In this document: positions 1 through 37,278 of the stretch, piece after piece
Layout: each line of letters begins with the position of its first letter
Position numbering within the stretch: position 1 is the first letter of the stretch
From: Saccoglossus kowalevskii
Taxonomy: Eukaryota; Hemichordata; Enteropneusta; Harrimaniidae
Length of the DNA stretch: 37,278 bases
Assembly (NCBI RefSeq): GCF_000003605.2
Contig: NW_003148241.1
Coordinates: 1 to 37,278, forward strand
Direction of reading: 5' to 3'
Notes under the pieces: generated by a model
Databases searched by the model: none
What the model saw: only the letters and a program-made list of their open reading frames with translations
What the model was told of the DNA's origin: nothing
Program-made: the position numbers and the translations under genes

Positions 1-12
1 CTTAAAGAGAGC

Positions 13-97
13 CATCCCCGGTGGGATTCGAACCCACAGCCCCCGAATAACTTTTTCAACTAGAATTCCGACTCGCTATCCGTTGCGCCACAGAGAC
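13..97 (-). tRNA. tRNA-Arg(UCU), copy 1, divergent
   Basis: This is an 85-bp gene: 73 mature positions plus a 12-nt intron directly after position 37. It is the most divergent copy at the array's left side. Position 25 is A, breaking the D-stem pair with G10. C32 is A. Two acceptor pairs are only wobbles. Downstream there is only TTT instead of the usual TTTT terminator. It may be decaying. Confidence 0.75.
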
Positions 98-293
98 ACT
101 GCATAACGCCTGCTTCGTATGCAAGGTAATTTTTATTTTTTACATCACAACGTTTGACCAGATCACACTGTTCCTTTCGATCTTGACTCATAATTGAATA
201 CACAATATGTATTTTGAATAACAAAATTTATATTTTATTATAACGTATTATGTACACGAAATTAGAATGACTAACCACGAATAAATGCTTTTC
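98..293. other. Homeobox unit 1 3' UTR and tRNA 5' flank
   Basis: This AT-rich stretch lies between the homeobox stop codon and the tRNA 5' end. It contains the poly(A) signal and otherwise no ORF or RNA that I can recognise. The same 195-bp block lies between tRNA and stop codon in each full unit. Confidence 0.8.
234..239 (-). promoter_or_regulatory. Poly(A) signal AATAAA of homeobox unit 1
   Basis: AATAAA on the minus strand lies 55 nt after the TGA stop. The same hexamer stands at the same distance in the full units (for example 2884-2889, 10086-10091, 32981-32986), so a functional 3' end is plausible. The hexamer is in an AT-rich tract, which lowers certainty. Confidence 0.55.
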
Positions 294-1246
294 TCAAACA
301 GAATATGAAGCTTCGCAAATGACTAATGGACACAAAGTACGATCTAAATCAGTAATTCCATTAAATGACAAATCTGATGACACGTCTTTACAAGGTGTAC
401 TATATATTTCTATTTCACTTTGATAGACGTCTGTCAGGATACCACTGGAATGTGTACTGCAATTTTGTATCTTCGTATCACTACAATGCCTTGGTGTACT
501 ACTGGATTGTGTAACACTAATATATTCACTGAGGGAAGGCGTTGCTGGTAGGACATCAAGTCGAGTGTCCACTGATTTTCCTCGACTTTGCACGGACGGA
601 AAACGCGTCGTCGATTCTTTCAACTTTTGTATTGGTGCTTGATGGTGCTTAGCATATAACACGGCATCTCTTTCCCGTTTTTGCCTCCGTTTTTGACTCC
701 GACGATTCTGAAACCACTTCTGAAAAGTGAATAAAATAGATTATTGTATAATATAATGAACAACAAGAAACTGTTCGCTTACATTATAACATACTTTGGT
801 GCATACATAATGCTCTCACTTACCATAATTGACTTTTCCGATAAGTTGGTAATTATGGCGATACGCTTGCGCATGTCGCGATTTAGATACTCTGTAGTAG
901 TTGTAAATATTACTTCTAATAAAACCGACTGTGTCTCGCTGTAGATATAGCGACTTGATTTCCTGCCAACATAACTACCTGTAAAAATAAAAAAAAAACA
1001 TATTTGTGTCTGTAGCAATCGTGATACAACATTACGTGACCTAAACCACTATAATCCATTTTGAAGTTAATTCGGTGAGACATAATTATTTAAAGTAGAG
1101 CACATTTACTTACCTTTGCTGTGCGATTTACCATCTACGTAACCGCAGACATTCTTCCAATCAAACCGACCAGCAATATCTAACACCGGTAATAAGTTCA
1201 ACATAACATTGGCTGTGAAATGGGTGTTGTCAATATGTAATGCCAT
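294..1246 (-). CDS. Single-homeodomain protein, unit 1 (3 exons, intact)
   Basis: Exon 1 is 1114..1246, exon 2 is 824..978 and exon 3 is 294..719. The introns (135 and 104 nt) are GT-AG with GTAAGT donors and pyrimidine-rich acceptors. Phases match: exon 1 ends with one base completing Gly45, and exon 2/3 join between codons. Spliced length is 714 nt, 237 aa. Residues 50-110 form a homeodomain with R5, Y8, Q12, L16, F20, Y25, L26, L40, W48, F49, Q50, N51 and R53 in place. One extra residue sits in the helix 1-2 loop (TTTTE). A basic RKR follows it, then a Ser/Thr/Cys-rich tail with no domain I recognise. The N-terminus has FTANVML, weakly like an eh1 repressor motif. It is presumably a nuclear DNA-binding transcription factor. 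The start is the ATG at 1246 (A at -3, G at +4); the open frame upstream has no ATG. Compared with the other copies, unit 1 has several private tail changes (FPSVQS, YISVTQ, EIYSTP). A class cannot be assigned. Confidence 0.86.
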
Positions 1247-1325
1247 AGTATTCTTTATACGATACACATGGGACGAGAAAGCGTGTAGCAATGATACACA
1301 TGTGGTATGTTTTGGTTGGTTTATA
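1247..1325 (-). promoter_or_regulatory. Core promoter and 5' UTR of homeobox unit 1 (TATA + Initiator)
   Basis: TATAAA on the minus strand is at 1320..1325. An Initiator-like TCATTG lies with its A at 1292, 33 bp after the TATA box. This would give a 5' UTR of about 46 nt before the ATG at 1246. The spacing fits a TATA/Inr promoter. It is conserved in all complete copies: 3965-3970, 6249-6254, 8526-8531, 11168-11173, 13811-13816, 17017-17022, 19300-19305, 21577-21582, 24587-24592, 27227-27232, 29505-29510, 31786-31791 and 34022-34027. The start site itself is inferred. Confidence 0.6.
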
Positions 1326-2943: not shown

Positions 2944-3891
2944 TCAAACAGAATATGAAGCTTCGCAAATGACTAATGGACACAGAGTACGATCTAAATC
3001 AGTAATTCCATTAAATGACAAATCTGATGACACGTCTTTACAAGGTGTACTACATATTTCTATTTCACTTTGACAGACGTCTGTCAGGATACCACTGGAA
3101 TGTGTACTGCAATTTTGTATCTTCGTATCACTACAATGCCTTGGTGTACTACTGGATTGTGGAACACCAATATATTCCCGGAGGGAAGGCGTTGCTGGTA
3201 GGACATCAAGTCGAGTGTCCACTGATTTTCCTCGACTTCGCACGGACGGAAAACGCGTCGTCGATTCTTTCAACTTTTGTATTGGTGCTTGATGGTGCTT
3301 AGCATATAACACGGCATCTCTTTTCCGTTCTTGCCTCCGTTTTTGACTCCGACGATTCTGAAACCACTTCTGAAAAGTGAATAAAATAGATTATTGTATA
3401 ATGAACAACAAGAAACTGTTCGCTTACATTATAACATACTTTGGTGCATACATAATGCTCTCACTTACCATAATTGACTTTTCCGATAATTTGGTAATTA
3501 TGGCGATACGCTTGCGCATGTCGCGATTTAGATACTCCGTAGTAGTTGTAAATATTACTTCTAATAAAACCGACTGTGTTTCGCTGTAGATATAGCGACT
3601 TGATTTCCTGCCAACATAACTACCTGTAAAAATAAAAAAAAAACATATTTGTGTCTGTAGCAATCGTGATACAACATTACGTGACCTAAACCACTATAAT
3701 CCATTTTGAAGTTAATTCGGTGAGACATAATTATTTAAAGTAGAGCACATTTACTTACCTTTGCTGTGCGATGTACCATCTACGTAACGGCAGACATTCT
3801 TCCAATCAAACCGACCAGCAATATCTAACACCGGTAATAAGTTCAACATAACATTGGCTGTTAAATGGGTGTTGTCAATATGTAATGCCAT
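2944..3891 (-). CDS. Single-homeodomain protein, unit 2 (intact)
   Basis: Exons 3759..3891, 3469..3623 and 2944..3369 (exons 1 to 3) give 237 aa with all splice sites kept. Differences from the common form: F10 is L in the eh1-like stretch, GYVDGK is RYVDGT at the end of exon 1, N39 of the homeodomain is K (TKLSEK), and the tail has SLREYI and VCQSEI. The exon 1 changes are shared only with unit 4, so the two exons 1 come from one recent copy. All fold and base-contact residues are unchanged. Confidence 0.85.
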
Positions 3892-3970: not shown

Positions 3971-4954
3971 GTTTCGAATTCCTATACCAATTTTCGCATT
4001 TGTAAGGATATTCAATAAAACTTTGTCAATGGATTGCCGCCTCCTTCTGTAAAATGCCGCCTGTATAATTACGCTACAAATGTGTTAACTGGCAGTGTTG
4101 TTATGCCAATTAACACTCCATATAACGTGAAAAGACATTGGAACTCGGATGTGTGAAGCTGTTAATGATTGATCTTGCCGGCATTCACCGAGTGATGGCG
4201 CTTCGACAAAACAAAAAAAACGTATACTGGCTGCGGCGATTTTGTTGTGTTTATTAATTGAGTATACCATTTCAAAATGTGTATGGAATTATAAATCTCA
4301 TCCGACGCTCTTCTCTATTTGGTGTTCTTTAATTATTGACACTTAGATAAGATACTGCTGTTTAATTCGGACAGAACACTGACGTTAAATTGAACAAAAC
4401 AATCCAATAGAGAACTGCTTTTCTTTCAAAAATGCCGGCTTTCTAATATCATGGCAAATGTGTTAACTTTTGGCAAATGTGTTATCAATTGGAATGCAAA
4501 TTAATAATCCGCGGATCGTGAAAACTCACTATCTCTGTGATTGTTCCGGTTGATTATGTTTCAACTCACCAACATTTACCGTGTGACGGTGCTTCAATAA
4601 CATGTTAAAGAGCATTCAACGTCACTCCATGTAGACGTTGGGGATAAGCAAGGACATGTATGTTGATGGAATTAGGTAATTAATTTTATATTTCGGTTGA
4701 TCTTACAAAGGCTCGTGTAGAACACATATTAAACACCTTGTATCGCTACAACCAGTTGGCTTTTTATACCATTGGTAGCCATTTTTTTTATATTGGTTCA
4801 TTCCATCAAAATGCGTGCAGAATATTTTAATCTCAGTCGACGGTCTCGGTCTTTCCTAATTATTAGTACCGAGGAGAGCTACAACTGTCCAATATGTTAA
4901 GACTATTGACGACAATTTGAACAAAACATGTCCATCGTGACTTAAAAGAAGAGC
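3971..4954. repeat. Intergenic spacer, unit 2
   Basis: No gene is seen. The elements of the unit 1 spacer are all present. The CAACGTC/GACGTTG inverted repeat is perfect here (4617-4640), with stems of 7 bp and a loop of 10 nt. Confidence 0.75.
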
Positions 4955-5039
4955 CATCTCCGGTGGGATTCGAACCCACAGCCTCCGAATAACTGTTTCA
5001 ACTAGAAGTCCGACGCGCTATCCGTTGCGCCACGGAGAC
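4955..5039 (-). tRNA. tRNA-Arg(UCU), copy 4 (consensus)
   Basis: It matches the consensus copy at 2672 in every stem, the anticodon, both internal promoter boxes and the 12-nt intron. TTTT follows downstream. Confidence 0.95.
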
Positions 5040-5226
5040 ACTGCATATCGCCTGCTTCGTATGCAAGGTATTTTTATTTTTTACATCACAACGTTTGACC
5101 AGATCACACTGTTCCTTTCGATCTTGACTCATAATTGAATACACAATATGTATTTTGTATTCATATTTTATTATAACGTATTATGTACACGAAATTAAAA
5201 TGACTAACCACGAATAAATGCTTTTC

Positions 5227-6175
5227 TCAAACAGAATATGAAGCTTCGCAAATGACTAATGGACACAGAGTACGATCTAAATCAGTAATTCCATTAAATG
5301 ACAAATCTGATGACACGTCTTTACAAGGTGTACTACATATTTCTATTTCACTTTGATAGACGTCTGTCAGGATACCACTGGAATGTGTACTGCAATTTTG
5401 TATCTTCGTATCACTACAATGCCTTGGTGTACTACTGGATTGTGGAACACCAATATATTCACTGAGGGAAGGCGTTGCTGGTAGGACATCAAGTCGAGTG
5501 TCCACTGATTTTCCTCGACTTCGCACGGACGGAAAACGCGTCGTCGATTCTTTCAACTTTTGTATTGGTGCTTGATGGTGCTTAGCATATAACACGGCAT
5601 CTCTTTTCCGTTCTTGCCTCCGTTTTTGACCCCGACGATTCTGAAACCACTTCTGAAAAGTGAATAAAATAGATTATTGTATAATGAACAACAAGAAACA
5701 GTTCGCTTACATTATAACATACTTTGGTGCATACATAATGCTCTCACTTACCATAATTGACTTTTCCGATAAGTTGGTAATTATGGCGATACGCTTGCGC
5801 ATGTCGCGATTTAGATACTCCGTAGTAGTTGTAAATATTACTTCTAATAAAACCGACTGTGTCTCGCTGTAGATATAGCGACTTGATTTCCTGCCAACAT
5901 AACTACCTGTAAAAATAAAAAAACCCACATATTTGTGTCTGTAGCAATCGTGATACAACATTACGTGACCTAAACCACTATAATCCATTTTGAAGTTAAT
6001 TCGGTGAGACATAATTATTTAAAGTAGAGCACATTTACTTACCTTTGCTGTGCGATTCACCATCTACGTAACCGCAGACATTCTTCCAATCAAACCGACC
6101 AGCAATATCTAACACCGGTAATAAGTTCAACATAACATTGGCTGTAAAATGGGTGTTGTCAATATGTAATGCCAT
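5227..6175 (-). CDS. Single-homeodomain protein, unit 3 (intact)
   Basis: Exons 6043..6175, 5752..5906 and 5227..5652 give 237 aa. The only coding difference from the common form that I noticed is K to E near the end of exon 1 (GYVDGES). The homeodomain and tail are the common sequence, so this is close to the family consensus. Intron 1 has the A-tract variant AAAAAAACCCAC before the exon 2 acceptor, shared with unit 5. Confidence 0.86.
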
Positions 6176-6254: not shown

Positions 6255-7236
6255 GTTTCGAATTCCTATACCAATTTTCGCATTTGTAAGGATATTCAAG
6301 AAAACTTTGTCAATGGATTGCCGCCCCCTTCTTTAAAATGCCGTCTGTTTACTTGCGCTACAAATGTGTTAACTCGCAGTGTTGTTATGCCAATTAACAC
6401 TCCATATAACGTGAAAAGACACAGGAACTCGGATGTGTAAAGCTGTTAATGATTGAACTTGCCGGCATTCACCGAGTGATGGCGCTTCGACAAAACAATA
6501 AAAACGTCTACTGGCTGCGGCGATTTTGTTGTGTTTATTAATGAGTATACCATTTAAAAATGTGTATGGAATTATAAATCTCATCCGACGCTCTTCTCTA
6601 TTTGGTGTTCTTTAATTATTGACACATAGGTAAGATACTGCTGTTTAATTCGGACAGAACACTGACGTTAAATTGAACAAAACAATCCAATAGAGAACTG
6701 CTTTTCTTTCAAAAATGACCGGCTTTCTAATATCATGGCAAATGTGTTAACTTTTGGCAAATGTGTTAACAATTGGAATGCTAATTAATAATCCGCGGAT
6801 CGTGAAAACTCACTAACTCTGTGATTGTTCCGGTTGATTATGTTTCAACTCACCAACATTTACCGAGTGACGGTGCTTCAACAACATGTTAAAGAGCATT
6901 CAACGTCATTCCATGTAGACGTTGGAGATAAGCAAGGACATGTATGTTGATGGAATTAGGTAATTATTTTTATATTTCGGTTGATCTTACAAAGGCTCGT
7001 GTAGAACACGTATCAAACACCTAGTATCGCTACAATCAGTTGGCTTTTTATACCATTAGTAGCCATTTTTGTATTTGGTTCATTACATCAAAATCCGTGT
7101 AGAATATTTTAATCTCAGTCGACGGTCTCGGTCTTTCCTAATTATTAGCACCGAGGAGAGCTACAACTGTCCAATATGTTAAGACCATTGACGACAATTT
7201 GAACAAAACATGTCCATCGTGACTTAAAAGAAGAGC
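6255..7236. repeat. Intergenic spacer, unit 3
   Basis: No gene is seen. It is a standard spacer of 982 bp with the paired TGGCAAATGTGTTAA repeats, the TAATTAATAAT site, the ATCCGCGGAT palindrome and both hairpins. Confidence 0.75.
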
Positions 7237-7321
7237 CATCTCCGGTGGGATTCGAACCCACAGCCTCCGAATAACTGTTTCAACTAGAAGTCCGACGCGC
7301 TATCCGTTGCGCCACGGAGAC
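7237..7321 (-). tRNA. tRNA-Arg(UCU), copy 5 (consensus)
   Basis: All stems, anticodon, intron and internal promoter boxes match the consensus. It starts a 364-bp mini-unit without a homeobox gene (the next tRNA is at 7601). Confidence 0.94.
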
Positions 7322-7600
7322 ACAGCATACCGCCTGCTTCATATGCAAGATATTTTTATTTGTTACATCACAACACCAAACACCTTGTATCGCTACAACC
7401 AGTTGGCTTTTTATATCATTGGTAGCCATTTTTTTATATTGGTTCATTCCGTCAAAATGCGTGCAGAATATTTTAATCTCTGTCGACGGTCTCGGTCTTT
7501 CCTAATTATTAGTACCGAGGAGAGCTACAACTGTCCAATATGTTAAGACTATTGACGACAATTTGAACAAAACATGTCCATCGTGACTTAAAAGAAGAGA

Positions 7601-7685
7601 CATCTCTGGTGGGATTCGAACCCACAGCCTCCGAATAACTTTTTCAACTAGAAGTCCGACGCGCTATCCGTTGCGCCACGGAGAC
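7601..7685 (-). tRNA. tRNA-Arg(UCU), copy 6
   Basis: G67 is A, giving a C6-A67 mismatch in the acceptor stem; the rest is intact. Its 5' flank is of the mini-unit type and leads into spacer sequence that is then fused to a truncated homeobox gene (unit 4). Confidence 0.82.
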
Positions 7686-7892
7686 ACAGCATACCGCCTG
7701 CTTCGTATGCAAGATATTTTTATTTGTTACATCACAACACCAAACACCTTGTATCGCTACAACCAGTTGGCTTTTTATACCATTGGTAGCCATTTTTTTT
7801 ATTGGTTCATTCCATCAAAATGCGTGCAGAATATTTTAATCTCAGTCGACGGTCTCGGTCTTTCCTAATTATTAGTACCGAGGAGAGCTACC
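7686..7892. repeat. Spacer tail fused to exon 3 remnant
   Basis: This is mini-unit type spacer (CACCAAACACCTTGTATCGC onward) carrying the CTCGGT/ACCGAG hairpin. It stops abruptly at GAGAGCTAC, where homeobox exon 3 begins. The region usually lying here (spacer end, tRNA, 3' UTR, exon 3 tail) is deleted. Confidence 0.85.
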
Positions 7893-8452
7893 TGCCTCCG
7901 TTTTTGACACCGACGATTCTGAAACCACTTCTGAAAAGTGAATAAAATAGATTATTGTATAATGAACAACAAGAAACTGTTCGCTTACATTATAACATAC
8001 TTTGGTGCATACATAATGCTCTCACTTACCATAATTGACTTTTCCGATAAGTTGGTAATTATGGCGATACGCTTGCGCATGTCGCGATTTAGATACTCCG
8101 TAGTAGTTGTAAATATTACTTCTAATAAAACCGACTGTGTCTCGCTGTAGATATAGCGACTTGATTTCCTGCCAACATAACTACCTGTAAAAATAAAAAA
8201 AACACATATATGTGTCTGTAGCAATCGTGATACAACATTACGTGACCTAAACCACTATAATCCATTTTGAAGTTAATTCGGTGAGACATAATTATTTAAA
8301 GTAGAGCACATTTACTTACCTTTGCTGTGCGATGTACCATCTACGTAACGGCAGACATTCTTCCAATCAAACCGACCAGCAATATCTAACACCGGTAATA
8401 AGTTCAACATAACATTGGCTGTTAAATGGGTGTTGTCAATATGTAATGCCAT
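7865..8452 (-). pseudogene. Homeobox unit 4, tail deleted by fusion to spacer
   Basis: Exon 1 (8320..8452) and exon 2 (8030..8184) are intact. Exon 3 keeps only its first 13 codons (to 7892); a junction at 7891-7893 joins it to spacer sequence GAGGAGAGCTA. Translation then runs VALLGTNN into TAG at 7865-7867. The predicted product is 117 aa: the N-terminus and nearly the whole homeodomain (to Q59, S54 changed to C), but without the 120-odd residue tail and without the normal poly(A) signal. Exon 1 shares the L/R/T changes of unit 2. It could still encode a DNA-binding competitor if transcribed and polyadenylated; that is inference. More likely it is a broken copy. Confidence 0.8.
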
Positions 8453-8531: not shown

Positions 8532-9510
8532 GTTTCGAATTCCTATACCAATTTTCGCATTTGTAAGGATATTCAAAAAAACTTTGTCAATGGATTGCCG
8601 CCCCCTTCTGTAAAATGCCGTCTGTTTACTTGCGCTACAAATGTGTTAACTCGCAATGTTGTTATGCCAATTAACACTCCATATAACGTGAAAAGACACA
8701 GGAACTCGGATGTGTAAAGCTGTTAATGATTGAACTTGCCGGCATTCACCGAGTGATGGCGCTTCGACAAAACAAAAAAACGTTTACTGGCTGCGGCGAT
8801 TTTGTTGTGTTTATTAATGAGTATACCATTTAAAAATGTGTATGGAATTATAAATCTCATCCGACGCTCTTCTCTATTTGGTGTTCTTTAATTATTGACA
8901 CATAGGTAAGATACTGCTGTTTAATTCGGACAGAACACTGACGTTAAATTGAACAAAACAATCCAATAGAGAACTGCTTTTCTTTCAAAATGACCGGCTT
9001 TCTAATATCATGGCAAATGTGTTAACTTTTGGCAAATGTGTAAGAATTTGAATGCTAATTAATAATCCGCGGATCGTGAAAACTCACTAACACTGTGATT
9101 GTTCCGGTTGATTATGTTTCAACTCACCAACATTTACCGTGTGACGGTGCTTCAATAACATGTTAAAGAGCATTCAACGTCATTCCATGTAGACGTTGGG
9201 GATAAGCAAGGACATGTATGTTGATGGAATTAGGTAATTTTTTTTATATTTCGGTTGATCTTACAAAGGCTCGTGTAGAACATATATCAAACACCTAGTA
9301 TCGCTACAATCAGTTGGCTTTTTATACCATTAGTAGCCTTTTTTTGTATTTGGTTCATTACATCAAAATCCGTGCAGAATATTTTAATCTCAGTCGACGG
9401 TCTCGGTCTTTCTAATTATTAGCACCGAGGAGAGCTATAACTGTCCAATATGATAAGACCATTGACGACGATTTTAACAAAACAAATCCATCGTGACTTA
9501 AAAGAAGAAG
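8532..9510. repeat. Intergenic spacer, unit 4
   Basis: No gene is seen. It is a standard spacer. The second TGGCAAATGTGT repeat has decayed (GTAAGAATTTG). Confidence 0.75.
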
Positions 9511-9595
9511 CATCTCTGGTGGGATTCGAACCCATAGCCTCCGAATAACTTTTTCAACTAGAAGTCTGACGCGCTATCCGTTGCGCCATGGAGAC
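9511..9595 (-). pseudogene. Probable tRNA-Arg(UCU) pseudogene, copy 7
   Basis: The family outline, anticodon and 12-nt intron are visible, but four stems are damaged: C6-A67 and A7-C66 in the acceptor, A29-C41 in the anticodon stem, and A49-C65 in the T stem. It starts a mini-unit. Confidence 0.75.
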
Positions 9596-9873
9596 ACAGC
9601 ATACCGCCTGTTTCATATGCAAGATATTTTTATTTGTAACATCACAACACCAAACACCTTGTATCGCTACAACCAGTTGGCTTTTTATACCATAGGAAGC
9701 CATTTTTTATATTGGTTCATTCCATCAAAATGCGTGCAGAATATTTTAATCTCAGTCGACGGTCTCGGTCTTTCCTAATTATTAGTACCGAGGAGAGCTA
9801 CAACTGTCCAATATGTTAAGACTATTGACGACAATTTGAACAAAACATGTCCATCGTGACTTAAAAGAAGAGC

Positions 9874-9958
9874 CATCTCCGGTGGGATTCGAACCCACAG
9901 ACTCCGAATAACTGTTTCAACTAGAAGTCCGACGCGCTATCCGTTGCGCCACGGAGAC
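9874..9958 (-). tRNA. tRNA-Arg(UCU), copy 8
   Basis: All stems are intact. The one change is G46 to T in the variable loop, which could weaken a tertiary contact. A TTTT terminator is present. Confidence 0.9.
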
Positions 9959-10145
9959 ACTGCATATCGCCTGCTTCGTATGCAAGGTATTTTTATTTTT
10001 TACATCACAACGTTTGACCAGATCACACTGTTCCTTTCGATCTTGACTCATAATTGAATACACAATATGTATTTTGTATTCATATTTTATTATAACGTAT
10101 TATGTACACGAAAATAAAATGACTAACCACGAATAAATGCTTTTC

Positions 10146-11094
10146 TCAAACAGAATATGAAGCTTCGCAAATGACTAATGGACACAGAGTACGATCTAAA
10201 TCAGTAATTCCATTAAATGACAAATCTGATGACACGTCTTTACAAGGTGTACTACATATTTCTATTTCACTTTGATAGACGTCTGTCAGGATACCACTGG
10301 AATGTGTACTGCAATTTTGTATCTTCGTATCACTACAATGCCTTGGTGTACTACTGGATTGTGGAACACCAATATATTCACTGAGGGAAGGTGTTGCTGG
10401 TAGGACATCAAGTCGAGTGTCCACTGATTTTCCTCGACTTCGCACGGACGGAAAACGCGTCGTCGATTCTTTCAACTTTTGTATTGGTGCTTGATGGTGC
10501 TTAGCATACAACACGGCATCTCTTTTCCGTTCTTGCCTCCGTTTTGGACCCCGACGATTCTGAAACCACTTCTGAAAAGTGAATAAAATAGATTATTGTA
10601 TAATGAACAACAATAAACTGTTCGCTTACATTATAACATACTTTGGTGCATACATAATGCTCTCACTTACCATAATTGACTTTTCCGATAAGTTGGTAAT
10701 TATGGCGATACGCTTGCGCATGTCGCGATTTAGATACTCCGTAGTAGTTGTAAATATTACTTCTAATAAAACCGACTGTGTCTCGCTGTAGATATAGCGA
10801 CTTGATTTCCTGCCAACATAACTACCTGTAAAAATAAAAAAACCCACATATTTGTGTCTGTAGCAATCGTGATACAACATTACGTGACCTAAACCACTAT
10901 AATCCATTTTGAAGTTAATTCGGTGAGACATAATTATTTAAAGTAGAGCACATTTACTTACCTTTGCTGTGCGATTTACCATCTACGTAACCGCAGACAT
11001 TCTTCCAATCAAACCGACCAGCAATATCTAACACCGGTAATAAGTTCAACATAACATTGGCTGTAAAATGGGTGTTGTCAATATGTAATGCCAT
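10146..11094 (-). CDS. Single-homeodomain protein, unit 5 (intact, consensus)
   Basis: Exons 10962..11094, 10671..10825 and 10146..10571 give 237 aa. As far as I can see the protein is the common form of the array with no private replacement, which makes it the best reference copy. Splice sites, start context and poly(A) signal (10086-10091) are all kept. Confidence 0.88.
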
Positions 11095-11173: not shown

Positions 11174-12154
11174 GTTTCGAATTCCTATACCAATTTTCGC
11201 ATTTGTAAGGATATTCAAGAAAACTTTGTCAATGGATTGCCGCCCCCTTCTGTAAAATGCCGTCTGTTTACTTGCGCTACAAATGTGTTAACTCGCAGTG
11301 TTGTTATGCCAATTAACACTCTATATAACGTGAAAAGACACAGGAACTCGGATGTGTAAAGCTGTTAATGATTGAACTTGCCGGCATTCACCGAGTGATG
11401 GCGCTTCGACAAAACAAAAAAAAACGTCTACTGGCTGCGGCGATTTTGTTGTGTTTATTAATGAGTATACCATTTCAAAATGTGTATGGAATTATAAATC
11501 TCATCCGACGCTCTTCTCTCGTTGGTGTTCTTTAATTATTGACACATAGGTAAGATACTGCTGTTTAATTCGGACAGAACACTGACGTTAAATTGAACAA
11601 AACAATCCAATAGAGAACTGCTTTTCTTTCAAAGATGCCGGCTTTCTAATATCATGGCAAATGTGTTAACTTTTGGCAAATGTGTTAACAATTGGAATGC
11701 TAATTAATAATCCGCGGATCGTGAAAACTCACTAACTCTGTGATTGTTCCGGTTGATTATGTTTCAACTCACCAACATTTACCGAGTGACGGTGCTTCAA
11801 CAACATGTTAAAGAGCATTCAACGTCATTCCATGTAGACGTTGGGGATAAGCAAGGACATGTATGTTGATGGAATTAGGTAATTATTTTTATATTTCGGT
11901 TGATCTTACAAAGGCTCGTGTAGAACACATATCAAACACCTAGTATCGCTACAATCAGTTGGCTTTTTATACCATTAGTAGCCATTTTTGTATTTGGTTC
12001 ATTACATCAAAATCCGTGTAGAATATTTTAATCTCAGTCGTCGGTCTCGGTCTTTCTAATTATTAGCACCGAGGAGAGCTATAACTGTCCAATATGTTAA
12101 GACCATTGACGACGATTTTAACAAAACAAATCCATCGTGACTTAAAAGAAGAAC
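11174..12154. repeat. Intergenic spacer, unit 5
   Basis: No gene is seen. All spacer elements are present; near the end GTCGAC has become GTCGTC. Confidence 0.75.
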
Positions 12155-25935: not shown

Positions 25936-26020
25936 CATCTCCGGTGGGATTCGAACCCACAGCCTCCGAATAACTGTTTCAACTAGAAGTCCGACGCGCT
26001 ATCCGTTGCGCCACGGAGAC
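25936..26020 (-). tRNA. tRNA-Arg(UCU), copy 17 (consensus)
   Basis: Consensus throughout, with a TTTT terminator. Confidence 0.95.
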
Positions 26021-26207
26021 ACTGCATATCGCCTGCTTCGTATGCAAGGTATTTTTATTTTTTACATCACAACGTTTGACCAGATCACACTGTTCCTTTC
26101 GATCTTGACTCATAATTGAATACACAATATGTATTTTTTATTTATATTTTATTATAACGTATTATGTACACGAAATTAAAATGACTAACCACGAATAAAT
26201 GCTTTTC

Positions 26208-27153
26208 TCAAACAGAATATGAAGCTTCGCAAATGACTAATGGACACAGAGTACGATCTAAATCAGTAATTCCATTAAATGACAAATCTGATGACACGTC
26301 TTTACAAGGTGTACTACATATTTCTATTTCACTTTGATAGACGTCTGTCAGGATACCACTGGAATGTGTACTGCAATTTTGTATCTTCGTATCACTACAA
26401 TGCCTTGGTGTACTACTGGATTGTGGAACACCAATATATTCACTGAGGGAAGGCGTTGCTGGTAGGACATCAAGTCGAGTGTCCACTGATTTTCCTCGAC
26501 TTCGCACGGACGGAAAACGCGTCGTCGATTCTTTCAACTTTTGTATTGTTGCTTGGTGGTGCTTAGCATATAACACGGCATCTCTTTTCCGTTCTTGCCT
26601 CCGTTTTTGACCCCGACGATTCTGAAACCACTTCTGAAAGTGAATAAATAGATTATTGTATAATGAACAACAAGAAACTGTTCGCTTACATTATAACATA
26701 CTTTGGTGCATACATAATGCTCTCACTTACCATAATTGACTTTTCCGATAAGTTGGTAATTATGGTGATACGCTTGCGCATGTCGCGATTTAGATACTCC
26801 GTAGTAGTTGTAAATATTACTTCTAATAAAACCGACTGTGTCTCGCTGTAGATATAGCGACTTGATTTCCTGCCAACATAACTACCTGTAAAAATAAAAA
26901 AAAAACATATTTGTGTCTGTAGCAATCGTGATACAACATTACGTGACCTAAACCACTATAATCCATTTTGAAGTTAATTCGGTGAGACATAATTATTTAA
27001 AGTAGAGCACATTTACTTACCTTTGCTGTGCGATTTACCATCTACGTAACCGCAGACATTCTTCCAATCAAACCGACCAGCAATATCTAACACCGGTAAT
27101 AAGTTCAACATAACATTGGCTGTAAAATGGGTGTTGTCAATATGTAATGCCAT
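26208..27153 (-). CDS. Single-homeodomain protein, unit 11 (intact)
   Basis: Exons 27021..27153, 26731..26885 and 26208..26633 give 237 aa. Differences are HHQATIQ (P to T) just after the homeodomain and A to T at homeodomain position 35 (RKRITII). Intron 2 is two bases shorter than usual in its A-runs; both splice sites are kept. Confidence 0.86.
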
Positions 27154-27232: not shown

Positions 27233-28212
27233 GTTTCGAATTCCTATACCAATTTTCGCATTTGTAAGGATATTCAAGAAAACTTTGTCAATGGATTGCC
27301 GCCCCCTTCTGTAAAATGCCGTCTGTTTACTTGCGCTACAAATGTGTTAACTCGCAGTGTTGTTATGCCAATTAACACTCCATATAACGTGAAAAGACAC
27401 AGGAACTCGGATGTGTAAAGCTGTTAATGATTGAACTTGCCGGCATTCACCGAGTGATGGCGCTTCGACAAAACAAAACAAAAACGTCTACTGGCTGCGG
27501 CGATTTTGTTGTGTTTATTAATGAGTATACCATTTCAAAATGTGTATGGAATTATAAATCTCATCCGACGCTCTTCTCTTGTTGGTGTTCTTTAATTATT
27601 GACACATATGTAAGATACTGCTGTTTAATTCGGACAGAACACTGACGTTAAATTGAACAAACAATCCAATAGAGAACTGCTTTTCTTCAAAGATGCCGGC
27701 TTTCTAATATCATGGCAAATGTGTTAACTTTTGGCAAATGTGTTAACAATTGGAATGCTAATTAATAATCCGCAGATCGTGAAAACTCACTAACTCTGTG
27801 ATTGTTCCGGTTGATTATGTTTCAACTCACCAACATTTACCGAGTGACGGTGCTTCAACAACATGTTAAAGAGCATTCAACGTCATTCCATGTAGACGTT
27901 GGGGATAAGCAAGGACATGTATGTTGATGGAATTAGGTAATTATTTTTATATTTCGGTTGATCTTACAAAGGCTCGTGTATAACACATATCAAACACCTA
28001 GTATCGCTACAATCAGTTGGCTTTTTATACCATTAGTAGCCATTTTTGTATTTGGTTCATTACATCAAAATCCGTGTAGAATATTTTAATCTCAGTCGTC
28101 GGTCTCGGTCTTTCTAATTATTAGCACCGAGGAGAGCTACAACTGTCCAATATGTTAAGACTATTGACGACAATTTGAACAAAACATGTCCATCGTGACT
28201 TAAACGAAGAGC
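27233..28212. repeat. Intergenic spacer, unit 11
   Basis: No gene is seen. The ATCCGCGGAT palindrome is broken here (ATCCGCAGAT). The GTCGTC variant near the end is shared with the unit 5 spacer. Confidence 0.75.
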
Positions 28213-28297
28213 CATCTTCGGTGGGATTCGAACCCACAGCCTCCGAATAACTGTTTCAACTAGAAGTCCGACGCGCTATCCGTTGCGCCACGGAGAC
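28213..28297 (-). tRNA. tRNA-Arg(UCU), copy 18, weakened
   Basis: There is a C5-A68 acceptor mismatch, and the downstream T-run is reduced to TTT. The T arm is intact, unlike its relative at 12518. Its status is uncertain. Confidence 0.75.
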
Positions 28298-28484
28298 ACT
28301 GCATATCGCCTGCTTCGTATGCAAGGTATTTTTATTTTTTACATCACAACGTTTGACAAGATCACACTGCTCCTTTCGATCTTGACTCATAATTGAATAC
28401 ACAATATGTATTTTTTATTTATATTTTATTATAACGTATTATGTACACGAAATTAAAATGACTAACCAAGAATAAATGCTTTTC

Positions 28485-29431
28485 TCAAACAGAATATGAA
28501 GCTTCGCAAATGACTAATGGACACAGAGTACGATCTAAATCAGTAATTCCATTAAATGACAAATCTGATGACACGTCTTTACAAGGTGTACCACATATTT
28601 CTATTTCATTTTGATAGACGTCTGTCAGGATACCACTGGAATGTGTACTGCAATTTTGTATCTTCGTATCACTACAATGCCTTGGTGCACTACTGGATTG
28701 TGGAACACCAATATATTCACTGAGGGAAGGCGTTGCTGGTAGGACATCAAGTCGAGTGTCCACTGATTTTCCTCGACTTCGCACGGACGGAAAACGCGTC
28801 GTCGATTCTTTCAACTTTTGTATTGGTGCTTGATGGTGCTTAGCATACAACACGGCATCTCTTTTCCGTTCTTGCCTCCGTTTTGGACCCCGACGATTCT
28901 GAAACCACTTCTGAAAAGTGAATAAAATAGATTATTGTATAATGAACAACAAGAAACTGTTCGCTTACATTATAACATACTTTGGTGCATACATAATGCT
29001 CTCACTTACCATAATTGACTTTTCCGATAAGTTGGTAATTATGGCGATACGCTTGCGCATGTCGCGATTTAGATACTCCGTAGTAGTTGTAAATATTACT
29101 TCTAATAAAACCGACTGTGTCTCGCTGTAGATATAGCGACTTGATTTCCTGCCAATATAACTACCTGTAAAAATAAAAAAACACATATTTGTGTCTGTAG
29201 CAATCGTGATACAACATTACGTGACCTAAACCACTGTAATCCATTTTGAAGTTAATTCGGTGAGACATAATTATTTAAAGTAGAGCACATTTACTTACCT
29301 TTGCTGTGCGATTTACCATCTACGTAACCGCAGACATTCTTCCAATCAAACCGACCAGCAATATCTAACACCGGTAATAAGTTCAACATAGCATTGGCTG
29401 TAAAATGGGTGTTGTCAATATGTAATGCCAT
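28485..29431 (-). CDS. Single-homeodomain protein, unit 12 (intact)
   Basis: Exons 29299..29431, 29010..29164 and 28485..28910 give 237 aa. The tail has SSSAPRH and YQNEIEICG; exon 1 has TANAML (V to A) and the start of exon 2 has SYIGRK. The first two tail changes pair it with unit 6. Confidence 0.86.
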
Positions 29432-29510: not shown

Positions 29511-30491
29511 GTTTCGAATTCCTATACCAATTTTCGCATTTGTAAGGATATTCAAGAAAACTTTGTCAATGGATTGCCGCCCCCTTCTGTAAAATGCCGG
29601 CTGTTTACTTGCGCTACAAATGTGTTAACTCGCAGTGTTGTTATGCCAATTAACACTCCATATAACGTGAAAAGACACAGGAACTCGGATGTGTAAAGCT
29701 GTTAATGATTGAACTTGCCGGCATTCACCGAGTGATGGCGCTTCGACAAAACAAAAAAAACGTCTACTGGCTGCGGCGATTTTGTTGTGTTTATTATTGA
29801 GTATACCATTTCAAAATGTGTATGGAATTATAAATCTCATCCGACGCTCTTCTCTCTTTGGTGTTCTTTAATTATTGACACTTAGGTAAGATACTGCTGT
29901 TTAATTCGGACAGAAGACTGACGTTAAATTGAACAAAACAAGCCAATAGAGAACTGCTTTTCTTTCAAAAATGCCGGCTTTCTAATATCGTGGCAAATGT
30001 GTTAACTATTGGCAAATGTGTTAACAATTGGAATGCTAATTAATAATCCGCGGGTCGTGAAAACTCACTAACTCTGTGATTGTTCTGGTTGATTATGTTT
30101 CAACTCACCAACATTTGTCGAGTGACGGTGCTTCAATAACATGTTAAAGAGCATTCAACGTCATTCCATGTAGACGTTGGGGATAAGCAAGGACATGTAT
30201 GTTGATGGAATTAGGTAATTTTTTTTATATTTCGGTTGATCTTACAAAGGCTCGTGTAGAACACATATCAAACACCTAGTATCGCTACAATCAGTTGGCT
30301 TTTTATACCATTAGTAGCCATTTTTTTATATTTGTTCATTCCATCAAAATGCATGCAGAATATTTTAATCTCAGTCGACGGTCTCGGTCTTTCCTAATTA
30401 TTCGTACCGAGGAGAGCTACAACTGTCCAATATGTTAGACTATTGACGACAATTTGAACAAAACATGTCCATCGTGACTTAAAAGAAGAGC
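29511..30491. repeat. Intergenic spacer, unit 12
   Basis: No gene is seen. The palindrome is ATCCGCGGGT (broken), a variant shared with units 14 and 15, the start of a distinct right-end spacer type. Confidence 0.75.
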
Positions 30492-30576
30492 CATCTCCGG
30501 TGGGATTCGAACCCACAGCCTCCGAATAACTTTTTCAACTAGAAGTCCGACGCGCTATCCGTTGCGCCACGGAGAC
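30492..30576 (-). tRNA. tRNA-Arg(UCU), copy 19
   Basis: All stems are consensus; the intron is the GTTGAAAAAGTT form. A TTTT terminator is present. Confidence 0.94.
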
Positions 30577-30763
30577 ACTGCATATCGCCTGCTTCGTATG
30601 CAAGGTATTTTTATTTTTTACATCACAACGTTTGACCAGATCACACTGCTCCTTTCGATCTTGACTCATAATTGAATACACAATATGTGTTTTTTATTTA
30701 TATTTTATTATAACGTATTATGTACACGAAATTAAAATGACTAACCACGAATAAATGCTTTTC

Positions 30764-31712
30764 TCAAACAGAATATGAAGCTTCGCAAATGACTAATGGA
30801 CACAGAGTACGATCTAAATCAGTAATTCCATTAAATGACAAATCTGATGACACGTCTTTACAAGGTGTACTACATATTTCTATTTCACTTTGATAGACGT
30901 CTGTCAGGATACCACTGGAAAATGTACTGCAATTTTGTTTCTTCGTATCACTACAATGCCTTGGTGTACTACTGGATTGTGGAACACCAATATATTCACT
31001 GAGGGAAGGCGTTGCTGGTAGGACATCAAGTCGAGTGTCCACTGATTTTCCTCGACTTCGCACGGACGGAAAACGCGTCGTCGATTCTTTCAACATTTGT
31101 ATTGGTGCTTGATGGTGCTTAGCATATAACACGGCATCTCTTTTCCGTTCTTGCCTCCGTTTTTGACCCCGACGATTCTGAAACCACTTCTGAAAAGTGA
31201 ATAAAATAGATTATTGTATAATGAACAACAAGAAACTGTTCGCTTACATTATAACATACTTTGGTGCATACATAATGCTCTCACTTACCATAATTGACTT
31301 TTCCGATAATTTGGTAATTATGGCGATACGCTTGCGCATGTCGCGATTTAGATACTCCGTAGTAGTTGTAAATATTACTTCTAATAAAACCGACTGTGTT
31401 TCGCTGTAGATATAGCGACTTGATTTCCTGCCAACATAACTACCTGTAAAAATAAAAAAAAACACATATTTGTGTCTGTAGCAATCGTGATACAACATTA
31501 CGTGACCTAAACCACTATAATCCATTTTGAAGTTAATTCGGTGAGACATAATTATTTAAAGTAGAGCACATTTACTTACCTTTGCTGTGCGATTTACCAT
31601 CTACGTAACCGCAGACATTCTTCCAATCAAACCGACCAGCAATATCTAACACCCGTAATAAGTTCAACATAACATTCGCTGTATAATGGGTGTTGTCAAT
31701 ATGTAATGCCAT
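30764..31712 (-). CDS. Single-homeodomain protein, unit 13 (intact)
   Basis: Exons 31580..31712, 31289..31443 and 30764..31189 give 237 aa. It shares LLRVLD, N39K and QMLKES with unit 8, and adds HYTANV in exon 1 and KKQNCSTFSS in the tail. The F-to-Y change alters the first residue of the eh1-like motif. Confidence 0.85.
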
Positions 31713-31791: not shown

Positions 31792-32768
31792 GTTTCGAAT
31801 TCCTATACCAATTTTCGCATTTGTAAGGATATTCAAGAAAACTTTGTCAATGGATTGCCGCCCCTTCTGTAAAATGCCGGCTGTTCACTTGTGCTACAAA
31901 TGTGTTAACTCGCAGTGTTGTTATGCCAATTAACACTCCATATAACGTGCAAAGACATAGGCACTCGGATGTGTAAAGCTGTTAATGATTGAACTTGCCG
32001 GCATTCACCGAGTGATGGCGCTTCGACAAAACAAAAAAACGTATACTGGCTGCGGCGATTTTGTTGTGTTTATTAATGAGTATACATTTCAAAATGTGTA
32101 TGGAATTATAAATCTCATCCGACGCTCTTCTCTATTTGGTGTTCTTTAATTATTGACACTTAAGTAAGATACTGCTGTTTAATTCGGACAGAACACTGAC
32201 GTTAAATTGAACAAAACAAGCCAATAGAGAACTGCTTTTCTTTCAAAAATGCCGGCTTTCTAATATCATGGCAAATGTGTTAACTTTTGGCAAATGTGTT
32301 AATAATTGGAATGCTAATTAATAATCCGCGGATCGTGAAAACTCACTAACTCTGTGATTGTTCCGGTTGATTATGTTTCAACTCACCAACATTTACCGAG
32401 TGACGGTGCTTCAACAACATGTTAAAGAGCATTCAACGTCATTCCATGTAGACGTTGGGGATAAGCAAGGACATGTATGTTGATGGAATTAGGTAATTAT
32501 TTTTATATTTCGGTTGATCTTACAAAGGCTCGTGTAGAACACGTATCAAACACCTAGTATCGCTACAATCAGTTGGCTTTTTATACCATTAGTAGCCATT
32601 TTTGTATTTGGTTCATGACATCAAAATCCGTGTAGAATATTTTAATCTCAGTCGACGGTCTCGGTCTTTCTAATTATTAGCACCGAGGAGAGCTACAACT
32701 GTCCAATATGTTAAGACCATTGACGACAATTTGAACAAAACATGTCCATCGTGACTTAAAAGAAGAGC
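31792..32768. repeat. Intergenic spacer, unit 13
   Basis: No gene is seen. It is a standard spacer with all elements. Confidence 0.75.
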
Positions 32769-32853
32769 CATCTCCGGTGGGATTCGAACCCACAGCCTCC
32801 GAATAACTGTTTCAACTAGAAGTCCGACGCGCTATCCGTTGCGCCACGAAGAC
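32769..32853 (-). tRNA. tRNA-Arg(UCU), copy 20
   Basis: C5 is T, leaving a U5-G68 wobble; otherwise consensus. The 5' flank starts as mini-unit type (CAGCATACCGCC...TTTGTTACATC) and then continues into a normal homeobox 3' UTR, so the crossover between unit types lies at about 32900. Confidence 0.9.
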
Positions 32854-33040
32854 ACAGCATACCGCCTGCTTCATATGCAAGATATTTTTATTTGTTACAT
32901 CACAACGTTTGACCAGATCACACTGTTCCTTTCGATCTTGACTCATAATTGAATACACAATATGTATTTTTTATTTATATTTTATTATAACGTATTATGT
33001 ACACGATATTAAAATGACTAACCACGAATAAATGCTTTTC

Positions 33041-33948
33041 TCAAACAGAATATGAAGCTTCGCAAATGACTAATGGACACAGAGTACGATCTAAATCAGT
33101 AATTCCATTAAATGACAAATCTGATGACACGTCTTTACAAGGTGTACTACATATTTCTATTTCACTTTGATAGACGTCTCTCAGGATACCACTGGAATGT
33201 GTATTGCAATTTTGTATCTTCGTATCACTACAATGCCTTGGTGTACTACTGGATTGTGGAACACCAAGTCGAGTATCCACTGATTTTCCTCGACTTCGCA
33301 CGGACGGAAAACGCGTCGTCGATTCTTTCAACTTTGGTATTGGTGCTTGATGGTGCTTAGCATATAACACGGCATCTCTTTTCCGTTTTTGCCTCCGTTT
33401 TTGACTCCGACGATTCTGAAACCACTTCTGAAAAGTGAATAAAATAGATTATTGTATAATGAACAACAAGAAACTGTTCGCTTACATTATAACATACTTT
33501 GGTGCATACATAATGCTCTCACTTACCATAATTGACTTTTCCGATAACTTGGTGATTATGGCGATACCCTTGCGCATGTCGCGATTTAGATACTCTGTTG
33601 TAGTTGTAAATATTACTTCTAATAAAACCGACTGTGTCTCGCTGTAGATATAGCGACTTGATTTCCTGCCAACATAACTATCTGTAAAAATAAAAAAAAA
33701 CATATTTGTGTCTGTAGTAATTGTGATACAACATTACGTGACCTAAACCACTATAATCCATTTTGAAGTTAATTCGGTGAGACATAATTATTTAAAGTAG
33801 AGCACATTTACTTACCTTTGCTGTGCGATTTACCATCTACGTAACCGCAGACATTCTTCCAATCAAACCGATCAGCAATATCTAACACCGGTAATAAGTT
33901 CGACATAACATTGGCTGTAAAATGGGTGTTGTCAATATGTAATGCAAT
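33041..33948 (-). pseudogene. Homeobox unit 14, start codon lost, 13-codon deletion
   Basis: Exons are 33816..33948, 33527..33681 and 33041..33427. The ATG is ATT (33946-33948); the next in-frame ATG would be codon 15 at 33904-33906, dropping the N-terminus and eh1-like motif. An in-frame 39-nt deletion in exon 3 (TRL joined to GVPQSS) removes 13 tail residues. Further changes are SNLLPV and ADRFDW in exon 1, TDSYVG at the splice-spanning codon, and R33G plus N39K in the homeodomain. It could still be translated as a shorter homeodomain protein, but accumulated changes suggest decay. Confidence 0.75.
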
Positions 33949-34027: not shown

Positions 34028-35006
34028 GTTTCGAATTCCTATACCAATTTTCGCATTTGTAAGGATGTTCAAGAAAACTTTGTCAATGGATTGCCGCCTC
34101 CTTCTGTAAAATGCCGCCTGTTTAATTGCGCTACAAACGTGTTAACTCGCAGTGTTGTTATGCCAATTAACACTCTTAATAACGTGAATAGACACTGGAA
34201 CTCGGATGTGTGAAGCTGTTAATGATTGAACTTGCCGGCATTCACCGAGTGATGGCGCTTCGACAAAACAAAAAAACGTATACTGGCTGCGGCGATTTTG
34301 TTGTGTTTATTAATGAGTATACCATATCAAAATGTGTATGGAATTATAAATCTCATCCGACGCTCTTCTCTCATTGGTGTTCTTTAATTTTTGACACTTA
34401 GGTAATATACTGCTGTTTAATTCGGACAGAACACTGACGTTAAATTGAACAAAACAAGCCAATAGAGAACTGCTTTTTTTTCAAAAATGCCGGCTTTCTA
34501 ATATCATGGCAAATGTGTTAACTGTTGGCAAATGTGTTAACAATTGGAATGCTAATTAATAATCCGCGGGTCGTGAAAACTCACTAACTCTGTGATTGTT
34601 CTGGTTGATTATGTTTCAACTCACCAACATTTGCCGAGTGACGGCGCTTCAATAACATGTTAAAGAGCATTCAACGTCATTCCATGTAGACGTTTGGGAT
34701 AGGCAAGGACATGTATGTTGATGGAATTAGGTAATAATTTTATATTTCGGTTGATCTTACAAAGGCTCCTGTAGAACATATATCAAACACATAGTATCGC
34801 TACAACCAGATGGCTTTTTATACCATTAGTAGCCATTTTTGTATTTGGTTCCTTACATCAACATGCGTGCAGAATATTTTAATCTCAGTCGACGGTCTCG
34901 GTCTTTCCTAATTATTAGCACCGAGGAGAGCTACAACTGTATAATATGTTAAGATTATTGACGACGATTTGAACAAAACAAGTCCATCGTGACTTAAAAG
35001 AAGAGA
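34028..35006. repeat. Intergenic spacer, unit 14 (right-end type)
   Basis: No gene is seen. This more divergent spacer has ATCCGCGGGT, TTTGCCGAGTGACGGCGC and GACGTTTGGG, so both the palindrome and the CAACGTC/GACGTTG hairpin are damaged. Confidence 0.75.
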
Positions 35007-35091
35007 CATCTCTGGTGGGATTCGAACCCACAGCCTCCGAATAACTTGTTCAACTAGAAGTCCGACGCGCTATCCGTTGCGCCACGGAGAC
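35007..35091 (-). tRNA. tRNA-Arg(UCU), copy 21
   Basis: C6-A67 acceptor mismatch as in copy 6; the intron is GTTGAACAAGTT. It is the only tRNA of the gene-less unit. Confidence 0.8.
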
Positions 35092-35245
35092 ACTGCATAC
35101 CGCCTGATTCGTATGCAAGATATTTTTATTTGTTACATCACAACACCAAACACCTTGTATCGCTACAACCAGTTGGCTTTTTATACCATTGGTAGCCAAT
35201 ACCTGTAAAAATAAAAAAAAAAAAACATATTTGTGTCTGTGGCAT
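35092..35245. repeat. Scar of a deleted homeobox gene
   Basis: Mini-unit spacer runs to GGTAGCCAA (about 35199), then come the last 3 nt of exon 2's acceptor side and about 42 nt of intron 1 (CTGTAAAAATAAAA...TTTGTGTCTGTGGCA), then at about 35245 sequence from upstream of the promoter (TCCTATACCAATT). Exons 1-3, the TATA box and the ATG are missing. Confidence 0.88.
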
Positions 35246-36214
35246 CCTATACCAATTGTCGCATTTGTAAGGATATTCAAGAAAACTGTGTCAATGGATT
35301 GCCGCCTCCTTCCGTAAAATGCCGCCTGTTTAATTGCGCTACAAATGTGTTAACTCGCAGTGTTGTTATGCCAATTAACACTCCATATAACGTGAAAAGA
35401 CACTGGAACTCGGATGTGTGAATCTGTTAATGATTGAACTTGCCGGCATTCACCGAGTGATGGCGCTTCGACAAAACAAAAAAACGTATATTGGCTGCGG
35501 CGATTTTGTTGTGTTTATTAATGAGTATACCATTTCAAAATGTGTATGGAATTATAAATCTCATCCGACGCTCTTCTCTATTTGGTGTTCTTTAATTATT
35601 GACACTTAGTAAAATACTGCTGTGTAATTCGGACAGAACAGTGACGTTAAATTGAACAAAACAATCCAACAGAGAACTGCTTTTCTTTCAAAAATGCCGG
35701 CTTTCTAATATCATGGCAAATGTGTTAACTTTTGGCAAATGTGTTAACAATTGGAATGCTAATTAATAATCCGCGGGTCGTGAAAACTCACTAACTCTGT
35801 GATTGTTCTGGTTGATTATGTTTCAACTCATCAACATTGGCCGAGTGACGGCGCTTCAATAACATGTTAAAGAGCATTCAACGTCATTCCATGTAGACGT
35901 TGGGGATAGGCAAGGACATGTATGTTGATGGAATTAGGTAATAATTTTATATTTCGGTTGATCTTACAAAGGCTCCTGTAGAACATATATCAAACACCTA
36001 GTATCGCTACAACCAGTTGGCTTTTTTATACCATTAGTAGCCATTTTTGTATTTGGTTCATTACATCAAAATGCGTGCAGAATATTTTAATCTCAGTCGA
36101 CGGTCTCGGTCTTTCCTAATTATTAGCACCGAGGAGAGCTACAACTGTCTAATATGTTAAGACTATTGAAGACGATGTGAACAAAACAAGTCCATCGTGA
36201 CTAAAAAGAAGAGC
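35246..36214. repeat. Intergenic spacer of the gene-less unit
   Basis: No gene is seen. It is a right-end type spacer (ATCCGCGGGT, GGCCGAGTGACGGCGC). The CAACGTC/GACGTTG hairpin is intact here. Confidence 0.75.
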
Positions 36215-36299
36215 CATCTCCGGTGGGATTCGAACCCACAGCCTCCGAATAACTTTTTCAACTAGAAGTCCGATGCGCTATCCGTTGCGCCTCGGAGAC
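36215..36299 (-). tRNA. tRNA-Arg(UCU), copy 22, U8 changed
   Basis: All stems pair. U8, nearly invariant in tRNAs (U8-A14 tertiary pair and A box), is A, and G26 is A. The downstream T-run is TTTTT. Function is doubtful because of U8. Confidence 0.75.
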
Positions 36300-36486
36300 A
36301 CTGCTTATCGCCTGCTTCGTATGCAAGGTATTTTTATTTTTTACATCACAACGTTTGACCAAATCACACTGTTCCTTTCGATCTTGACTCATAATTGAAT
36401 ACACAATATGTATTTTTTATTTATATTTTATTATAACGTATTATGTACACGAAATTAAAATGACTAACCACGAATAAATGCTTTTC

Positions 36487-37278
36487 TCAAACAGAATATG
36501 AAGCTTCGCAAATGACTAATGGACACAGAGTACGATCTAAATCAGTAATTCCATTAAATGACAAATCTGATGACACGTCTTTACAAGGTGTACTACATAT
36601 TTCTATTTCACTTTGATAGACGTCTGTCAGGATACCACTGGAATGTGTACTGCAATTTTGTATCTTCGTATCACTACAATGCCTTGGTGTACTACTGGAT
36701 TGTGGAACACCAAGTCGAGTGTCCACTGATTTTCCTCGACTTCGCACGGACGGAAAACGCGTCGTCGATTCTTTCATCTTTTGTATTGGTGCTTGATGGT
36801 GCTTAGCATATAATACGGCATCTCTTTTCCGTTTTTGTCTCCGTTTTTGACTCCGACGATTCTGAAACCACTTCTGAAAAGTGAATAAAATAGATTATTG
36901 TATAATGAACAACAAGAAACTGTTCGCTTACATTATAACATACTTTGGTGCATACATAATGCTCTCACTTACCATAATTGACTTTTCCGATAAGTTGGTG
37001 ATTATGGCGATACCCTTGCGCATGTCGCGATTTAGATACTCTGTAGTAGTTGTAAATATTACTTCTAATAAAACCGACTGTGTCTCGCTGTAGATATAGC
37101 GACTTGATTTCCTGCCAACATAACTACCTGTAAAAATAAAAAAACAAACATATTTGTGTCTGTAGCATTCGTGATACAAGATTACGTGACCTAAACCACT
37201 ATAATCCATTTTGAAGTTAATTCGGAGAGACATAATTATTTAAAGTAGAGCACATTTACTTACCTTTGTTGTGCGATT
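36487..37278 (-). CDS. Single-homeodomain protein, unit 15 (cut by window end)
   Basis: Exon 3 is 36487..36873, exon 2 is 36973..37127, and exon 1 is visible only from its donor end, 37264..37278. It carries the same 39-nt in-frame tail deletion as unit 14, R33G in the homeodomain, and QKMKES after it. What is visible is open and spliceable; start codon and promoter lie outside the window. If exon 1 is normal, the protein would be 224 aa. Confidence 0.8.

Follow-up and report, generated by a model that had tools for sequence, protein, structure and literature searches.

A spliced homeobox gene and a tRNA-Arg(UCU) gene share one tandem repeat unit in the hemichordate Saccoglossus kowalevskii

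DUX4 in D4Z4 is a homeobox macrosatellite built of kilobase-sized units. Other large homeobox arrays are described in the accessible sections of two papers: the lepidopteran Shx genes, which derive from zen inside the Hox cluster, stand as tens of divergent tandem copies (up to 165 loci) and in some species co-duplicate repeat elements (PMC9977156), and the rabbit LEUTX/ETCHbox genes, mammalian and CRX-derived, form a large tandem array with frequent conversion, 367 events being given among the LEUTX duplicates (PMC8208926). Transfer RNA (tRNA) genes form arrays as well. A human and mouse tRNA macrosatellite (human 1q23.3) has kilobase tandem units that are 98% alike, GC-rich and reportedly without transcripts beyond the tRNAs (PMC4041453, accessible part), and in the protist Entamoeba almost all tRNA genes lie in tandem arrays, whose units combine tRNA genes with short repeats and, in some cases, 5S RNA (PMC2652664, accessible part). 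Here we describe a stretch of the Saccoglossus kowalevskii genome (the window: the whole 37,278 bp analysed, contig C3844:1-37278) which is, from end to end, a tandem array whose repeat unit pairs a spliced homeobox gene with a tRNA-Arg(UCU) gene.

All repeat units of the window lie on the minus strand, and chance is excluded as the source of the pattern. In gene order, a unit consists of exon 1 (133 nt), an intron, exon 2 (155 nt), a second intron, exon 3 (426 nt), an 88-bp tRNA-Arg(UCU) gene containing a short intron, and a spacer of ~1.06 kb; the tRNA usually follows exon 3 by 186 bp (exactly so in 50 of 62 distances over all contigs), the main pieces of the unit are ~93-99% identical among copies across the window, and the GC content of the array is 36-40%. 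This anatomy supports the claim of an earlier note, made from the letters of the window, that the two genes had been co-amplified, and exon matches together with Rfam recovered the 15 homeobox and 22 tRNA-Arg(UCU) copies that it had counted on one strand. Its picture of alternation in a repeat of ~2.28 kb stands for part of the array. Among 56 units there are two main length classes, ~2.28 kb with one tRNA and ~2.64 kb with two, the second tRNA lying ~365 bp after the first, so the two genes do not strictly alternate; a few units fall outside these classes (range 1.2-3.5 kb). Two irregular places in the window, 35005-36300, where two tRNAs lie 1,208 bp apart with just a short gene fragment between them, and 13738-15615, where the spacer is duplicated, are the expected outcome of unequal exchange.

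In the window there are 15 matches to exon 3 with the 3′ end of the homeobox (two truncated), 14 to exon 1 and 16 to exon 2, of which one is a stray piece. As the earlier note had stated, 10 of the 14 copies bearing exon 1 are intact across two introns: each starts with an ATG, has GT-AG borders on its two introns and counts 238 codons together with the stop. These intact copies, on the minus strand like the rest, are copies 1 (294-1246; exons 1246-1114, 978-824 and 719-294), 2 (2944-3891), 3 (5227-6175), 5 (10146-11094), 6 (12790-13737), 8 (18277-19226), 9 (20558-21504), 11 (26208-27153), 12 (28485-29431) and 13 (30764-31712). Exon 3 is truncated after 38 nt in copy 4 (7893-8452) and frameshifted in copy 10 (23566-24513); copy 7 (16006-16943) has an early stop and a truncated exon 3, along with the stray exon-2 piece (16006-16088); copy 14 (33041-33948) is without its start codon and intron-1 acceptor and carries a 39-nt in-frame deletion; and copy 15 (36487-37127), which shares a 39-nt deletion, has exons 2-3 only, being cut by the window end.

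The encoded protein has one homeodomain (Pfam PF00046, E = 4e-11, residues 51-108), of which W48, F49, Q50, N51 and R53 are kept in all 43 intact copies of the array. The best-scoring solved structures for it are HHEX, Hox-A13 and DUX4, matches that are shallow, like the one to Pfam; compared with HHEX and Hox-A13 it has one additional residue in the loop after helix 1. The sole match outside the array among the scored genome candidates is a gene on contig C2346 (38%, E = 4.7e-4), Hox11/13-like in our reading, which is on a different contig from the known array edge (C1554). A phase-0 intron stands directly before K47-W48 of the homeodomain. Introns between homeodomain residues 46 and 47 are associated with the PRD class; PMC4901127 was not found to contain this association. 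By our reading the intron has the same place in PRD-like genes of contig C2714, which holds a second homeobox tandem array, with six homeodomain matches on alternating strands over 10 kb. Its unit of ~3.9 kb holds two distinct PRD-like genes, one on each strand, and in our reading either gene has its intron ahead of residue 47; no tRNA was found in the 4.2 kb of that array that were read (C2714:1-4200). In the array described here, all 58 full copies have AATAAA 54 nt downstream of the stop, and a TATA-like box ~80 bp upstream of the ATG hardly varies in the 56-unit alignment; because of these two elements and the GT-AG introns, transcription by RNA polymerase II (Pol II) is predicted.

By the marks of a tRNA-Arg(UCU) gene (a tRNA fold, a UCU anticodon, internal boxes and a T-run terminator), the tRNA genes of the window belong to this type, and, like the units that carry them, they stand head to tail on the same strand. 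Rfam and ARAGORN agree on those at 11-98, 4953-5040, 7235-7322, 7599-7686, 9510-9595, 9872-9959, 12154-12240, 15528-15615, 15893-15980, 18003-18090, 20284-20371, 23292-23379, 25570-25657, 25934-26021, 28211-28298, 30490-30577, 32767-32854, 35005-35092 and 36213-36300, and on a doublet with its first member at 2670-2757 and its second at 2307-2394, all on the minus strand. The copy at 12516-12603, also minus, is tRNA-Arg(UCU)-like and was called by Rfam only, so that all 22 stand above the Rfam cut-off and ARAGORN reports 21 as tRNA-Arg(tct). Over all contigs, the 92 ungapped flanked copies of 96 keep the A-box form in 83, the B box in 81 and TTTT within 25 nt in 83, and the TCT anticodon is present in 91 of 93 copies. 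Those at C3970:35795 and C2584:5589 instead have the anticodon TTT and are called tRNA-Lys by ARAGORN. Single tRNAs differ from the common mature sequence at a mean of 1.00 position, doublet firsts at 0.72 and doublet seconds at 1.85.

The array extends well beyond the window. A genome protein search, which returned best-scoring candidates only, placed array exons on C3844 (the window), C3970, C4681, C1193, C2584 and C3211 and at the end of C1554; no array match lies on C3844 past 37,278, so the window is probably the entire contig. The first six of these contigs consist of array units, 154,833 bp together, each in a single orientation, and hold all 96 tRNA matches, oriented like the homeobox gene; over all seven, and with partial ones counted, exon 1 was matched 62 times, exon 2 67 times and exon 3 65 times. 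All three exons were located in 61 copies, of which 43 are intact (238 codons including the stop) and encode 40 distinct proteins, the other 18 being broken by frameshifts, stops, loss of start, splice sites or terminator, or truncation; the splice-site ends are all kept in 57 of the 61. One edge of the array is anchored by C1554 (576,650 bp), where unique sequence joins the array within intron 1 at ~575,931 and the contig end falls inside exon 3 of an array copy. Open frames beside this edge (C1554:566001-576000) gave just weak TROVE and methyltransferase matches, under Pfam cut-offs. On contig C4526 there is a lone array tRNA, accompanied by the 3′ flank and spacer but by no exon match; this is either another edge of the array or a stray piece of it.

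Genome-wide patterns suggest that few such tRNA genes lie elsewhere. A broad pattern (CTTCTA plus the T-arm) matched 81 times, 79 of them in the six array contigs and one each on C4526 and C1156, and its reversed control matched nowhere. Of the 71 matches to a narrow pattern, 70 lie in the array and the last is on C4526; a middle pattern matched 83 times, with 80 matches in the array and single ones on C129, C1156 and C4526. Since the reversed control of the middle pattern also matched once, the short C129 match may be due to chance. All matches from a similarity search with one tRNA, as the best 40 of 96 candidates, fell in the array. Judged from these matches, the array looks like nearly the only detected nuclear source of tRNA-Arg(UCU). 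A tRNA-Lys pattern, examined likewise, gave 55 genome matches, 22 on C874, 27 on C4166 and six elsewhere, those of C874 in its first 10 kb and those of C4166 along the contig, many ~500-530 bp apart and on one strand, all by pattern only. Thus in both tRNA types tested, Arg(UCU) and Lys, most pattern matches stand in tandem.

Codon analysis covered 49 of the 61 copies, 12 of other length being dropped. The comparison of copies by exon that the earlier note had proposed, made here as the ratio of nonsynonymous to synonymous diversity (pN/pS), gave 0.89 for the coding sequence as a whole; by part, the ratio was 1.40 for exon 1, 0.86 for the homeodomain and 0.73 for the tail. There were 82 distinct nonsynonymous (N), 24 synonymous (S) and 2 nonsense variants; 82:24 fits the neutral N/S of 3.05 derived from the non-coding spectrum (p = 0.74), 5.9 nonsense variants would be expected for that variant total (p = 0.07), and among the variants shared by at least five copies 7 are N and 3 are S. 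The full non-coding rate would predict 192 N, 63 S and 15 nonsense variants, and all classes, synonymous included, fall below this because the spacer is more variable. Neither pN/pS nor N:S in these 49 copies thus revealed codon-level purifying selection within the array.

Insertions and deletions (indels) speak for some constraint. In 58 copies coding indels were about three-fold rarer than those of introns (10 events over 714 bp of coding sequence, 11 over 234 bp of intron, p = 0.008; p = 0.028 against intron 2 alone and 0.004 against the 3′ flank). Per 100 bp, the coding sequence had 1.40 events, the two introns 4.4 and 5.1, the 3′ flank 5.3 and the upstream region 10.2; some intron-1 indels resemble homopolymer slippage, which favours the coding/intron contrast. 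The earlier note had argued from intact frames to function, and this holds weakly: the rarity of coding indels and the few nonsense variants speak for it, the pN/pS and the neutral N:S do not. Unit divergence is ~2.6-2.9% at any distance within a contig and 2.9% between contigs (mean 2.85%), and this lack of a gradient with distance within array contigs fits exchange across the array. We read these data as weak pressure against truncation, no visible amino-acid pressure within the array and strong homogenisation. With ~60 redundant copies selection per copy is expected to be weak, so that a neutral-like result does not show the family to be useless.

We lean, by a small measure, towards the view that a tRNA-Arg array captured a divergent homeobox gene, that the combined unit has since spread and that the need for tRNA supply keeps the array large. 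A homeobox gene adjoining a tRNA-Arg gene would have been caught with it in one repeat unit, and unequal crossover and gene conversion would then have amplified and homogenised both; demand for tRNA-Arg(UCU) could maintain the size of the array, while the homeobox gene may ride along as a transcription-ready, highly redundant family whose single copies are nearly free to change. Separate promoters are predicted, Pol II for the homeobox gene and RNA polymerase III (Pol III) for the tRNA. It is possible, and to us rather doubtful, that the animal has no functioning nuclear source of tRNA-Arg(UCU) besides this array, which would place an essential tRNA and a fast-changing homeobox family in one dosage unit; if that is true, a change in tRNA copy number would alter homeobox copy number, and selection on one would drag the other. 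Several points weigh against tRNA-driven capture. We infer the driving role of the tRNA; just 36 of 93 tRNA copies are identical to the common mature sequence, and the diversity of the tRNA body (0.036; 92 of 96 copies) is modestly under that of its 50-bp flanks (0.060-0.066). The broad pattern catches 79 of the 96 array copies and misses 17, so that the patterns may also miss mutated or unusual tRNA-Arg(UCU) genes elsewhere, and C1156:4029-4068, its only match outside the array contigs and C4526, is known by pattern alone. Finally, diversity along the unit is 0.02-0.09 in the spacer and reaches its minimum, 0.005-0.025, across the homeobox transcription unit with its introns; this could point to the homeobox gene, rather than the tRNA, as the favoured part.

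That last point leads to the main rival, which we hold to be unlikely: a homeobox array carrying a tRNA, with a fast-evolving multi-copy family amplified for dosage and the tRNA as a passenger or as a boundary element between units. The 43 intact copies of 61, the depletion of coding indels and the diversity valley would all suit it, as would the large Shx and rabbit LEUTX arrays introduced above, and tRNA-gene barrier activity has been reported in mammals (PMC4041453, accessible part). It sits poorly with the overall pN/pS and neutral N:S, with a homeodomain ratio barely under that of the whole gene, and with introns as low in diversity (0.0105-0.015) as exons (0.009-0.017). Neutral-like N:S and 18 broken copies of 61 would suit the homeobox gene as a decaying passenger, captured intact without effective expression and looking intact through conversion and recent expansion of a few good copies; the three-fold depletion of coding indels, the AATAAA in every full copy and the 57 of 61 copies with no splice-site end lost make us think this quite improbable. 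The worry of the earlier note, that the array is an artefact of collapse or expansion, and likewise a stacking of two haplotypes as separate contigs, would draw on the six contigs made purely of array units and the large contig ending in the array, and matches of 97.3-97.4% over 10-14 kb, between and within array contigs, mean that alleles ~2-3% apart could be included in the copy counts as separate copies. The closest pair among the 56 aligned units is however 0.42% apart, a search of the seven contigs, which did recover the self-matches that served as its control, found no repeat of at least 3 kb at 99% identity (2,487 bp being the longest) and none of at least 1 kb at 99.5%, and the intact copies encode 40 distinct proteins. 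Stacking of near-identical haplotype copies is thus disfavoured, and an artefact is very improbable as an explanation of the array. The pairing of homeobox and tRNA genes stands whether the tRNA array or the homeobox array came to carry the other, and it is the pairing that is new.

The same assembly contains a mitochondrial contig, C4830 (17,037 bp), on which COX1 was found by its Pfam family and the other genes were named from their open frames. ND2 precedes ND1 and COX1 lies on the strand opposite to its neighbours; COX1 has one AAA, at a lysine site, and ATA at several sites which we take to be isoleucine in other animals. For the Saccoglossus kowalevskii mitochondrion, the accessible part of PMC3121625 describes COX1 as inverted, ND1 or ND2 as transposed, AUA as Ile and AAA as Lys, and that of PMC2697986 agrees on the code. 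By these features the genome is that of S. kowalevskii or a close relative.

Returning to the described systems, the novelty claimed by the earlier note has held so far: no homeobox-tRNA repeat and no Saccoglossus homeobox or tRNA array appeared among searchable titles and abstract openings, with subscription literature mostly outside reach, and the main text of the hemichordate genome paper PMC11175523 has 'homeobox' twice and neither 'tandem' nor 'tRNA'. DUX4 in D4Z4 resembles our array as a homeobox macrosatellite of kilobase units, and DUX4 is among the structure matches of the array homeodomain. The array is nevertheless not of the DUX4/D4Z4 type, for which two homeodomains are required: its gene has one, and has two introns. 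The 1q23.3 macrosatellite is likewise a kilobase tandem unit with tRNA genes; unlike it, our unit has a spliced homeobox gene, a single tRNA type and a GC content of 36-40%. The array shares tens of tandem divergent homeobox copies with Shx and a large, conversion-prone array with LEUTX/ETCHbox, and differs in being a hemichordate array with a tRNA gene in its unit; 'tRNA' is absent from the main text of the Shx paper (PMC9977156) and is not mentioned in the accessible text of PMC8208926. With Entamoeba it has tandem tRNA genes in common, and no protein gene is mentioned for the units of that protist in the accessible part of PMC2652664. The arrays compared here thus amplify a protein gene or small-RNA genes, whereas in Saccoglossus a developmental-type transcription factor gene is amplified together with apparently near the whole supply of one tRNA. 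If so, this array would allow a direct test of the idea that demand for a tRNA can bring a regulatory gene to many copies, and a non-vertebrate deuterostome would join the animals with mass homeobox amplification.

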